From contig NZDS01000234.1 in assembly GCA_002690215.1 (NCBI GenBank), positions 1 through 33,304 on the forward strand: a stretch of DNA of 33,304 nucleotides. Direction: 5' to 3'. Made by a program: the position numbers and the translations under genes. The notes under the pieces are model-generated. The model worked only from the letters and a program-made list of their open reading frames with translations. It had not been told where the DNA came from and made no database searches. Below are positions 3,515-7,851 of the stretch, piece after piece; the first letter of the stretch is position 1; every line of letters begins with the position of its first letter. Origin of the DNA: Rhodospirillaceae bacterium (lineage in GTDB: Bacteria; Pseudomonadota; Alphaproteobacteria; UBA2966).

Positions 3515-4651
3515 ATGAACCTCGATAAACTCCCGACACCCTCGTTGATTCTCGATCGGAATTGCCTGCAACGTAACACCGAAGCCATGACGGCACGCCT
3601 GAAGAAGCACGATGTGGCGTTGCGACCGCACATGAAAACGGCCAAGTCGATCGAAGTGGCACGCCTGGCGTTGGCCGGCAATTTTGGCGGAATCACCGTC
3701 TCAACCCTCGAAGAGGCCCGGTATTTTGCCCGTAATGGCATCACCGACATCGTTTACGGCGTCGGCATCGTACCGGCAAAACTCGATTTTCTCGCCGAAA
3801 TTCAGGGTAAAGTCGGAGAAAATGCACTGTTTTCGGTGATTCTCGACAATCCCGGGGTAGCCCGAGATGTCGCCGCCCGAGCCCAGGCGCTGGGCAGCAG
3901 CTTCGAGGTGCTAATCGAACTTGATTGCGGCGGCGACCGGGCTGGTGTTCCGGTCGGCGATGCCGAACGCCTGCTGGCCGTGGCCGCCGGCCTGCAGCAA
4001 GGCGGCGGCGTTGCCCTGAAGGGCGTGATGACCCATGCCGGCCACAGCTACCACTGCCACGGTAAAGCCGAAATCGAAAGTGTAGCTGAACAGGAACGCG
4101 CCGGCCTGGTCTGGGCCGCCGATTGCCTGGGCGCGGCCGGCCTGCCCTGCGACGTGGTCAGCGGCGGCTCGACCCCCACCGCGGTATTTGCCAAGAACCT
4201 CGATGGCGTCAGCGAAATGCGGCCCGGCGTCTATATGTTCGGCGACGTCATGCAGCAAGAGATCGGCACCTGCAGCGGCGAAGACATCGTCGTCACCGTC
4301 TTGGCCAGCGTTATCGGCCGCGGCGGCCGCAGCGGTAACGAACACATTCTGCTCGATGCCGGGGCGCTGGCGCTCTCGAAGGACCGTGGCGCCGACGAAT
4401 TCAGTCCTATAGCCGGATTTGGCTTGGTTTTCGACGTCGAAAACCGGTCGTTCCAAGGCCTATCGGTGAGCGATGCCCATCAAGAGCATGGCCTCGCAAC
4501 GGGCCCCAGCCTGCCGGCCCTGGAGATCGGCGAGCGGGTGCGCATTCGACCCATCCACTCCTGCCTGACGACGGCTATGTACCAGCGCTATCACGTGGTC
4601 GAGGGCGGGCGACAGGTTGTCGCTGTCTGGGAGAGGACTGGCGGTTGGTAA
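3515..4651 (+). CDS. D-serine dehydratase-like / D-threonine aldolase family PLP enzyme
   Basis: A 378-residue fold-type III PLP enzyme with an alanine-racemase-like barrel. K41 in RPHMKTAKS is the expected PLP-binding lysine. Near the C-terminus H348-S-C350 matches the His/Cys zinc pair of eukaryotic-type D-serine dehydratase (DSD1), rather than the His/Asp pair of D-threonine aldolase. Likely activity is zinc-dependent removal of water and ammonia from a D-3-hydroxy amino acid such as D-serine or D-threo-3-hydroxyaspartate. The exact substrate is not decided by the sequence. It follows the amidase after a short AT-rich gap (3458-3514) with no strong ribosome binding site. A second, divergent member of the family lies at 31681-32781. 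An AT-rich hairpin with a T-run follows its stop. Confidence 0.82.
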   Translation: MNLDKLPTPSLILDRNCLQRNTEAMTARLKKHDVALRPHMKTAKSIEVARLALAGNFGGITVSTLEEARYFARNGITDIVYGVGIVPAKLDFLAEIQGKVGENALFSVILDNPGVARDVAARAQALGSSFEVLIELDCGGDRAGVPVGDAERLLAVAAGLQQGGGVALKGVMTHAGHSYHCHGKAEIESVAEQERAGLVWAADCLGAAGLPCDVVSGGSTPTAVFAKNLDGVSEMRPGVYMFGDVMQQEIGTCSGEDIVVTVLASVIGRGGRSGNEHILLDAGALALSKDRGADEFSPIAGFGLVFDVENRSFQGLSVSDAHQEHGLATGPSLPALEIGERVRIRPIHSCLTTAMYQRYHVVEGGRQVVAVWERTGGW

Positions 4652-4658
4652 TATTATC

Positions 4659-4889
4659 GAACGATCGACCGTAAATAACTGACAAATCAGGATATTTCTG
4701 TTTTTTTTCGACCGATCGGTCGTCCCCTATATGCAGGAAACTCACGAACGAGCGTTCAAGTCAAAGTCACATCCCCAGTGTTCAGGAAATATGCGAACGT
4801 ACGTTCAAGGAACGGTCGCAATAAGCGTGCGCCTCTGTCCCCAATTTTCAAAAAACTACGAACGAGCGTTCGAGTCACTATCACAGTGA
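4659..4889. promoter_or_regulatory. Array of 12-bp palindromic operator-like sites between two convergent genes
   Basis: Sites of form GANCG-NN-CGNTC occur at 4659-4670 (GAACGATCGACC, one arm changed), 4710-4721 (GACCGATCGGTC, perfect), 4746-4757 (GAACGAGCGTTC), 4795-4806 (GAACGTACGTTC, perfect) and 4860-4871 (GAACGAGCGTTC). A half copy sits at 4810-4821. The copies at 4746 and 4860 lie in a longer direct repeat of about 28 bases, starting at 4744 and 4858. A TCACT/AGTGA dyad at 4875-4889 overlaps the stop of the next gene. The sites resemble operators of TetR-family repressors. Both flanking genes end here, so no promoter is expected and no TetR gene is in the window. No credible gene is seen in 4652-4880. 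Confidence 0.55.
4673..4708 (+). terminator. Probable rho-independent terminator after the PLP enzyme gene
   Basis: Arms AAATA (4673-4677) and CTGA (4679-4682) pair with TCAG (4687-4690) and TATTT (4693-4697) around a CAAA loop. Eight Ts follow at 4701-4708. The stem is AT-rich and interrupted, so it may be weak. Confidence 0.45.
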
Positions 4890-5645
4890 CAGGCTCATGC
4901 CGTCGTCGACAAGAACAACACTACCGGTCATGTAATCCCCTGCCGCCGAAGCCATCAACAACAACATGCCGTCCAAATCCTGAGGCTTGCCCAACCGGCG
5001 ACGGGGAAAGCCCGCTACCATCTTCTGGCCGTGTTCGCTGGCAAAGAACTCGGTATTCATCTCGGTCTCGACGTAGCCCGGCGCGAGGGCGTTGACGCGA
5101 ATGCCGTAGCGCGCCCACTCCAGCGCCATGACCTTGGTCATATGGGCTACTGCGGCCTTCGAAATGCAGTAGGTCGACAGCCCCTTGAGGGGCCGGATCG
5201 CAGCCATCGAAGCGATGTTGATGATGGAACCGCCGCGGCCGTGCTTGATCATGCGCTTGGCACACTCCTGAGCCACCATGAAGACGCCCTTGGTGTTGGT
5301 GTCGAGCACCCGGTCGTAGTCCTCTTCAGTCATCTCGATGATCAACTTGGTAACCTCGACGCCGGCGTTGTTGACGACAACCGAAAGCGCCCCCAATTCG
5401 GTTTCCGCGGCATCGACCGTGGCATGCACGCTGGCGACGTCGGTGACATCGAGGGCGAAGGCCATGGCGCGACCGTCGAACTCCTCGATTTCCGCGACCA
5501 GCGCCGCCAGTTTGTCGGCGCGACGTGCACAAACCGCTACGCGGGCGCCGCTGCGCGCCAGAGTCAGCGCAAAATGCCGGCCCAGGCCGCTGGAAGCCCC
5601 GGTCACCAGGGCCGTTACGCCCTCGAGCGCAAAGGGTTCGGTCAC
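4881..5645 (-). CDS. Short-chain dehydrogenase/reductase (SDR)
   Basis: A 254-residue classical SDR, expected to be an NAD(P)-dependent oxidoreductase of an alcohol or ketone. It has the cofactor motif TGASSGLG (15-22), NNAG (92-95), and the catalytic residues N117, S146, Y159 and K163. The C-terminal half carries the usual PGYVETEMN and GSVVLVDDG segments. The start is a GTG at 5645 with a perfect GGAGGT ribosome binding site five bases upstream. It converges on the PLP enzyme gene across the palindrome array and is divergent from the REC-REC-GGDEF gene. The substrate is not predictable. Its 3' end is the nearest coding sequence to the operator-like array. Confidence 0.9.
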   Translation of the reverse strand: MTEPFALEGVTALVTGASSGLGRHFALTLARSGARVAVCARRADKLAALVAEIEEFDGRAMAFALDVTDVASVHATVDAAETELGALSVVVNNAGVEVTKLIIEMTEEDYDRVLDTNTKGVFMVAQECAKRMIKHGRGGSIINIASMAAIRPLKGLSTYCISKAAVAHMTKVMALEWARYGIRVNALAPGYVETEMNTEFFASEHGQKMVAGFPRRRLGKPQDLDGMLLLMASAAGDYMTGSVVLVDDGMSLSL

Positions 5646-5827: not shown

Positions 5828-7162
5828 ATGCCCAGCTATTCGGCCCGGGTTCTAGTCTACGATACCGATCCCGAACACCCTCATGATCTTCCCGCAAAGC
5901 TTGAACAGCAGAATTATTTTTGCATACAGGTGGAGAACGAAACGGACGCCGTCGACGCCGTCATCAACGCTCATCCCGACGTGGTCATCGTCAACACCGT
6001 GCCTGCCGACAGCGCCTGGAGCGAGCTCTCCGATGCCGTGCACACGACATGGCGCGACCGCCAGGCACCGGTAATTCTGATCGGCGATACAGCCGGAATC
6101 GAACAAAAGGTCGAGAGCTTCCGCAGCAAAGTGGCCGACTATTTGCCGGCCAATTTCCACGATACACAGCTTTTTGCCCGTCTCCAGGCCTTGTTGCGCA
6201 TCAACACCATGCACGAGGAACTGCTCAGACGCATCTTCACGGTCGAAAAATACGGCGTCAAGGACATCGAGGCGGTATCGCCCGAGGTCGAGGTCGACGA
6301 CGCCCGTGTGGTGCTGCTGGGCCGAGACGCGGCTGAGCTTGACACGCTGGAAGCGGCGCTGAGCGACGAGCGCGTGGTGGCCCGCCTCGACGACCCCTTC
6401 GCCGCGATGGAAGCGCTGACCGAGAAGAATGTCGACGGCCTGATCGTGGCCACCCGGGGCGACGACCAGGAATTCTTCGGCTTCTGCACCGATGTGCGCC
6501 ACAATTCGCGTCTCTTTAATTTGCCCATCCTGGTCATCGTCGACGAGGGCGTGTTCGAGGCCGACGAAATGCAGTTGGCCCGCGGCGCCACCGAACCGAT
6601 CCAGCGGCCGATCATGGCAGACGACCTCAAGACCCGGCTGGAGTTGCTGATCATCCAGCAGCGCTACCGCTTTGCCGTGCGCAAGGTCTTCATGCAGTCG
6701 CTTCGCCCGGTCAACAGCGACGGCCTCACCGGCCTCTATAGCCACGGCTTCCTGCACGAGCACTTGGCCAGCCAAGTCGCCGATGCCGAGCAATGGCAAA
6801 AGCATCTTGCCGTGGGATTTTTCGATATCGACCTCTTTGGCGACGTCAACGCCGAGTTCGGCTATGTGGCCGGCGATTTGCTACTGCGCCAGATCGGCAC
6901 GATGATTTCGGGTCTGTTACGGGCCGAAGATCTGTCGGCGCGCTACGCCGGCGGCTCCTTCGTGGTGGTGCTACCGGAAACGCCGCTGCAGGTGGCCGAA
7001 ATCGCCTTGCAGCGCATTGCTTCGGTGGTGCGCTTTACCGAATTGGCCATCGCCGATGCCGTGAAGCCTATCAGCGTGGGGCTTTCCGTGGGTGTCACCG
7101 CCTTCGAGGCCGGCGACGATGCCGAAAGCCTGATCGCCCGCGCCCGCGAGGCCATGCAGTAA
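5828..7162 (+). CDS. PleD/PopA-like REC-REC-GGDEF protein with degenerate catalytic and receiver sites
   Basis: A 444-residue protein with two receiver-like domains (about 7-125 and 159-275) and a C-terminal GGDEF-type domain (about 290-444), the PleD architecture. The cyclase signature GGDEF reads AGGSF at 374-378, so the catalytic acidic residue is gone. D333, D335, N341 and D350 of the fold remain. The inhibitory-site motif RxxD is kept (R365 to D368, five residues before the signature). The phospho-acceptor aspartate is N56 in the first receiver and A208 in the second, and the usual KP lysine of the first is lost (DYLP). It is therefore probably a c-di-GMP-binding scaffold rather than a cyclase, as described for Caulobacter PopA, although orthology is not shown. 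It is followed 23 bases later by the frnE-like gene. Confidence 0.85.
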   Translation: MPSYSARVLVYDTDPEHPHDLPAKLEQQNYFCIQVENETDAVDAVINAHPDVVIVNTVPADSAWSELSDAVHTTWRDRQAPVILIGDTAGIEQKVESFRSKVADYLPANFHDTQLFARLQALLRINTMHEELLRRIFTVEKYGVKDIEAVSPEVEVDDARVVLLGRDAAELDTLEAALSDERVVARLDDPFAAMEALTEKNVDGLIVATRGDDQEFFGFCTDVRHNSRLFNLPILVIVDEGVFEADEMQLARGATEPIQRPIMADDLKTRLELLIIQQRYRFAVRKVFMQSLRPVNSDGLTGLYSHGFLHEHLASQVADAEQWQKHLAVGFFDIDLFGDVNAEFGYVAGDLLLRQIGTMISGLLRAEDLSARYAGGSFVVVLPETPLQVAEIALQRIASVVRFTELAIADAVKPISVGLSVGVTAFEAGDDAESLIARAREAMQ

Positions 7163-7185: not shown

Positions 7186-7851
7186 ATGGAGCTACAGATA
7201 GACGTCGTCTCCGATACCGTCTGTCCCTGGTGCCTGATCGGCAAGCGGCGCTTCGAACGCGCCCTGAAGGCTCGGCCAGAGGTCAAAGTAACGCTCAACT
7301 GGCGTCCCTTTCAGCTCAACCCCGACATGCCGGAAGGCGGTCTTGAGCGCAAAGAATATGTCGAGCGCAAGTTCGGCGAACCCGACCAGGCCCAGGCGGT
7401 CTACGAGAATATCCGACAGGCCGGACTGGGCGAGGACATCGACTTCGCTTTCGAAGCCATCCAGCGTACCCCCAACACCATCGATTCCCATCGCCTGATC
7501 CGCTGGGCCGGTTCAGCCGGTTGCCAGGACGCCGTGGTCGAGGATCTTTTTGGCCGCTATTTCCTGGCCGGCGCCGACATCGGCGATCACGCCGTGCTGA
7601 CCGACATCGCCGAGACCGCGGGCATGGACGCCAAGCTGGTGGCTGAACTTCTGGAGCGCAGCGACGATCGCGACCTGGTGGCCCGCGAGGACGCCCAGGC
7701 CCGGCAGATGGGGGTCAATGCCGTGCCCTGCTTCATCGTTGCCCAGCGTTACGTGGTATTCGGCGCCCAGGAGCCGGAGACCTTCCTGCAGCTATTTGAA
7801 CTGTTGGCCCGCGAGGACGCCGAGGCAGCGGCTGAAACCGCATTGGTTTGA
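7186..7851 (+). CDS. DsbA-family thiol oxidoreductase, FrnE-like
   Basis: A 221-residue thioredoxin-fold protein of the DsbA/FrnE group. The redox motif CPWC is at 13-16, directly after the first strand (DVVSDTVCPWC). The long helical insertion typical of the family follows, and the cis-proline loop is NAVPCFIV near residue 183. There is no signal peptide, which matches the cytosolic FrnE-like members linked in other bacteria to oxidative stress and disulfide exchange. The start is preceded by AAAGG and CGGAG. It lies 23 bases downstream of the REC-REC-GGDEF gene, so the two may be cotranscribed, with no obvious functional link. A GC-rich hairpin follows its stop. Confidence 0.87.
   Translation: MELQIDVVSDTVCPWCLIGKRRFERALKARPEVKVTLNWRPFQLNPDMPEGGLERKEYVERKFGEPDQAQAVYENIRQAGLGEDIDFAFEAIQRTPNTIDSHRLIRWAGSAGCQDAVVEDLFGRYFLAGADIGDHAVLTDIAETAGMDAKLVAELLERSDDRDLVAREDAQARQMGVNAVPCFIVAQRYVVFGAQEPETFLQLFELLAREDAEAAAETALV

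Follow-up and report, generated by a model that had tools for sequence, protein, structure and literature searches.

The gene at positions 5828 to 7162 of the stretch of DNA analysed here (the window, 33,304 nucleotides from a Rhodospirillaceae bacterium) quite probably encodes an orthologue of PopA that serves as a c-di-GMP receptor devoid of cyclase activity and acts as a scaffold. The gene and the parts of its product referred to below are the following.

5828 to 7162, plus strand: popA-like gene, 444 amino acids, two receiver domains (REC) followed by a degenerate GGDEF domain (Pfam, PleD structure, tree, AlphaFold2, Foldseek)
5843 to 6184, plus strand: receiver domain 1, residues 6-119, a pseudo-receiver (PleD alignment, Pfam, AlphaFold2 model)
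5993 to 5995, plus strand: N56, at the position of the PleD phospho-acceptor D53 and of PopA D55 (alignment)
6302 to 6652, plus strand: receiver domain 2, residues 159-275, a pseudo-receiver (PleD alignment, AlphaFold2 model)
6713 to 7159, plus strand: degenerate GGDEF domain, residues 296-444 (Pfam, PleD alignment)
6920 to 6931, plus strand: inhibitory (I-) site motif RAED, residues 365-368 (PleD alignment)
6947 to 6961, plus strand: AGGSF, residues 374-378, in place of GGEEF (PleD alignment; identical in the sister species)
7013 to 7015, plus strand: R396, equivalent to R390 of PleD and third residue of the inhibitory site (PleD alignment)

The REC-REC-GGDEF architecture was evident from Pfam, from the match to the PleD structure and from the structural model. 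Pfam matched the GGDEF domain at residues 296-444 (E 1.5e-28) and, below threshold, a receiver at residues 8-119. PleD was the best solved structure by sequence (residues 5-442, E 6e-35), and PleD chains were also the best PDB folds for the AlphaFold2 model (mean pLDDT 86.5; Foldseek E 1.9e-31). The protein nevertheless falls outside the PleD family, since it scored 218 bits against the curated cut-off of 474 of the PleD model NF007135 and lacks catalytic residues and the REC1 aspartate.

In the alignment with PleD the inhibitory-site residues R359, D362 and R390 correspond to R365, D368 and R396, all three retained, while GGEEF at 368-372 of PleD corresponds to AGGSF, with five residues between D368 and A374. 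D10, D53, T83 and K105 of the first PleD receiver are replaced by T13, N56, G86 and A108, and position 202 of the second, an asparagine in PleD too, corresponds to A208. Lys332 is replaced by G338, and the C-terminus falls short of the phosphate-binding Lys442 and Arg446. PMC6629876 (following Wassmann 2007) lists seven catalytic residues, of which four are lost here, namely K332, E370, K442 and R446. The protein is like PleD in architecture, in its inhibitory site and in a second receiver without aspartate; PleD differs in its complete set of catalytic residues and in a first receiver that keeps the conserved ones. R178 and R313, which in PleD bridge to the neighbouring domain, are replaced by V183 and D319, and because of these replacements the protein may not form the same dimer as PleD.

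These comparisons bear out most of a sequence-only reading of the gene, which had placed AGGSF in the position of GGDEF, RxxD five residues ahead of it, and N56 and A208 at the receiver aspartate positions; the replacement of Lys332 and the early C-terminus had escaped it. Its prediction of a dead cyclase with an intact inhibitory site agrees with the residues lost and with the retention of R365, D368 and R396, and N56 and A208 are likewise consistent with its proposal that phosphorylation input would be absent. The idea that the protein goes beyond PopA by having lost both aspartates finds no support, as the receiver-2 position is not an aspartate in PleD either.

The pattern of conservation was assessed in sampled sets of 52 PopA-like alphaproteobacterial proteins and 22 PleD proteins. 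The arginine of RxxD (R359 in PleD numbering) and the equivalent of R390 were found in 52/52 PopA-like proteins and D362 in 51/52, while GG[DE]EF was intact in three of the 52, the REC1 aspartate was present in 23, and neither the receiver lysine K105 nor the pair K442 and R446 occurred in any. All 22 PleD proteins kept every residue tallied, including D53 and K105. Conservation in the clade reaches 98% or more at just 5 of the 151 positions of the GGDEF domain, and four of these are R359, E361, D362 and R390; the glutamate at position 361, third in RxxD, is found in 98% of the clade and is an isoleucine in C. vibrioides PleD. Since the inhibitory-site residues are near-invariant while those of the active site are lost, selection has retained the inhibitory pocket and released the cyclase site. 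A single clade member (L087) breaks the motif, with RAEY instead of RxxD.

One may ask whether the protein is an inactive scaffold that has lost c-di-GMP binding as well, with the I-site residues retained for the fold. The replacement of the R178 and R313 equivalents would fit such an account, but few positions in the clade are as strongly conserved as R359, D362 and R390, and the adjoining active-site loop varies freely. A purely structural role is not expected to single out these three residues, and we regard this explanation as very unlikely.

Degeneration of both receivers and of the catalytic loop could also be read as the decay of a PleD copy confined to one genome. Against this, the orthologue of the sister species (L008, 89% identity) has the same degenerate features, as the sequence-only reading had proposed to look for, and dN/dS between the two genes is 0.13 (Nei-Gojobori), with 0.13 for REC1, 0.17 for REC2 and 0.10 for the GGDEF domain. 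Recent decay of the gene was rejected on this value. Orthologues from the next genus (L009 and L010, identical to L046 and L047 of the clade set) are 48-51% identical, and remoter ones occur across the class; L046 and L047 gave a dN/dS of 0.03, with synonymous sites near saturation. The gene is real, conserved and under purifying selection, and as the clade is old and its gene order conserved as well, decay in one genome is refuted and has practically no probability left. Orthologues with an intact GGDEF, taken beforehand as a pointer to such decay, were indeed found in L046 and L047, but these do not point to it because Lys332, Lys442 and Arg446 are missing there too. By the same losses L046 and L047 are probably dead cyclases, and an intact motif on a predicted dead cyclase is a trap for motif-based annotation.

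The relationship to PopA was established by tree and gene order. Genomes of the C. vibrioides clade were located with PleD of PDB 1w25/2wb4 as query (99-100% PleD identity), and the second full-length REC-REC-GGDEF protein of these genomes carries RVED, with the arginine at residue 357, and an aspartate at residue 55. R357 and D55 are, we assume, the published PopA residues and identify this protein as PopA. A tree of 74 rows split the 52 PopA-like proteins from the 22 PleD proteins with an SH-aLRT of 100, and the PopA-like clade takes in 12 Caulobacteraceae PopA, including that of C. vibrioides, together with the protein of the window. Branches inside the clade are long and the position of individual rows is uncertain, and the outgroups (PleD, WspR-type and other GGDEF families) were sampled narrowly. 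Derivation of Caulobacter PopA from Caulobacter PleD was rejected (p-AU 0.0001), and the split in the tree has a bearing on the corresponding question for the window protein and the PleD of its own genome.

The genes following popA in the window are the following.

7186 to 7851, plus strand: gene of a DsbA-family oxidoreductase, downstream of popA, whose product is 52% identical to its C. vibrioides counterpart (L132 8191-8832)
7926 to 11408, minus strand: mfd, convergent with popA and dsbA, in the same arrangement in C. vibrioides

The order in C. vibrioides is that of the window, with a dsbA-type gene downstream of popA and mfd next, in convergent orientation. The dsbA gene comes immediately after popA in 29 of 36 regions, which suggests a functional or transcriptional link across the class. 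A convergent mfd lies no more than 3 kb away in 20 of the 36, C. vibrioides included, and several other regions end at a contig edge. An SDR gene lies upstream of popA in many members outside Caulobacter. By tree and gene order the gene of the window is a distant orthologue of Caulobacter PopA, as its PopA-like appearance had first indicated.

A repeat was observed elsewhere in the window, at 4722-4885, where a GAACGNNCGTTC palindrome recurs in three units (4746, 4795 and 4860) at spacings of 49 and 65 bases. The palindromes sit between the convergent genes 3515-4651 and 4881-5645, with 0.02 expected by chance, and outside the window were seen at one other locus among those examined. The units may be operators bound by a repressor, although the location would be unusual.

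Like PopA of C. vibrioides/crescentus (CC_1842, CCNA_01918), the protein has two receivers and a degenerate GGDEF domain, RxED and the equivalent of PleD R390; in both, the C-terminus stops before the Arg446 position, the receiver lysine is lost and the popA-dsbA-mfd order is kept. The two differ in that identity is about 25%, D55 of the first PopA receiver is N56 here, the active-site loop is ATEVF in PopA and AGGSF here, and Caulobacter has RcdA and CpdR, neither of which was detected in the order to which the window belongs. That Caulobacter PopA keeps a receiver aspartate, as stated in the sequence-only reading, is right with respect to D55, but its otherwise invariant receiver lysine is lost, as in all 52 members of the clade.

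PMC8973945 describes an N-terminal part of Caulobacter PopA that binds RcdA, and CtrA bound in a c-di-GMP-dependent manner. None of the 15 genomes searched in the window's order, the window genome among them, yielded RcdA (PF07323), with a positive control in C. vibrioides, whereas the same Pfam model detected it in 51 of 76 alphaproteobacteria tested. A wider profile (20 RcdA sequences, E up to 5) gave nothing convincing in the order. CpdR was not detected in eight tested genomes of the order, where the listed places had at most 42% identity, compared with 68-73% in C. vibrioides, the Sneathiellales-like genome G015 and G281 with a joined CpdR/CtrA query. The CtrA query matched its C. vibrioides gene at 99% identity and the CpdR query, an approximate sequence, at 73%, which validates both as probes. 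CtrA was found at 70-77% identity in G001, G002, G004, G007, G015, G039 and G281, with orthologues at 72% in the sister genomes G001, G002 and G004, and four genomes of the window's order have CtrA although neither RcdA nor CpdR was detected. No CtrA match was obtained in the window genome, which is 92% complete, and an assembly gap may be the cause. Two nearly complete genomes of the window genome's family (G003 and G005) have no CtrA orthologue (best 33-34%) and no PopA; CtrA loss is unusual for an alphaproteobacterium. In a separate survey of genomes for PopA four candidates per genome were scored, and absence there is weak evidence.

Because RcdA and CpdR were not detected in the window's order, the Caulobacter mechanism is not simply transferable: as judged from these searches, PopA of this order cannot use the RcdA/CpdR route unless the genes have diverged beyond recognition. 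A full chain of the Caulobacter type, in which c-di-GMP-bound PopA links CtrA to RcdA and CpdR on ClpXP and both genes are diverged or hidden in gaps, would be in keeping with the CtrA orthologues of the three sister genomes and with RcdA being small and variable; in one genome (G382) it was missed by the Pfam model and gave a weak hit with the wider profile. It is nonetheless improbable in view of the 15 of 15 genomes negative with two profiles and of the low identity of the CpdR places. A bolder possibility, with less than even odds, is that PopA with bound c-di-GMP hands over CtrA or a different client alone or via another partner, and that the Caulobacter chain is a special wiring of an older receptor; it would cover the window's order and other PopA lineages in which RcdA was not detected, such as that of G015. 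The role in cell-cycle proteolysis proposed in the sequence-only reading is weakened by these absences, though CtrA proteolysis stays possible.

The window genome has its own divK-pleD pair with an intact GGEEF (G000:C28), which probably supplies the cell with c-di-GMP. We infer that the protein of the window binds c-di-GMP, catalyses nothing and is not phosphorylated. In the mechanism proposed here, c-di-GMP produced by PleD and the cell's other cyclases would bind at R365, D368 and R396 and alter the dimer state or partner contacts of a protein that would itself make no c-di-GMP and accept no phosphoryl group, and that would then serve as a scaffold. With no recognisable RcdA or CpdR in the lineage, it would probably make direct contact with ClpX or with a client, perhaps CtrA, or else act on another polar or flagellar target.

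A PopA-like clade of dead cyclases is already in print (2023). Fig. 5a of PMC10333796 has an alphaproteobacterial PopA-like branch with RxxD kept and GGDEF lost, whose members are predicted receptors, and a Hyphomonas popA homologue of 25% identity appears in PMC7200025. The gene order, the common loss of Lys442 and Arg446, the GGDEF-bearing members and the genomes without RcdA and CpdR are absent from that part of the PMC10333796 text that was available. New with respect to the literature cited are the joint absence of RcdA and CpdR and the orthology by gene order far beyond Caulobacter.

True PopA orthologues are thereby placed in uncultured marine Alphaproteobacteria, Sneathiellales, Minwuiaceae and others. 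The clade suggests an order of events from cyclase to receptor, in which all members have lost the phosphate-binding tail and the receiver lysine, while the letters of GGDEF decay in a different way in each line. Lineages that have PopA without detectable RcdA or CpdR are a natural test of a separate role of PopA.
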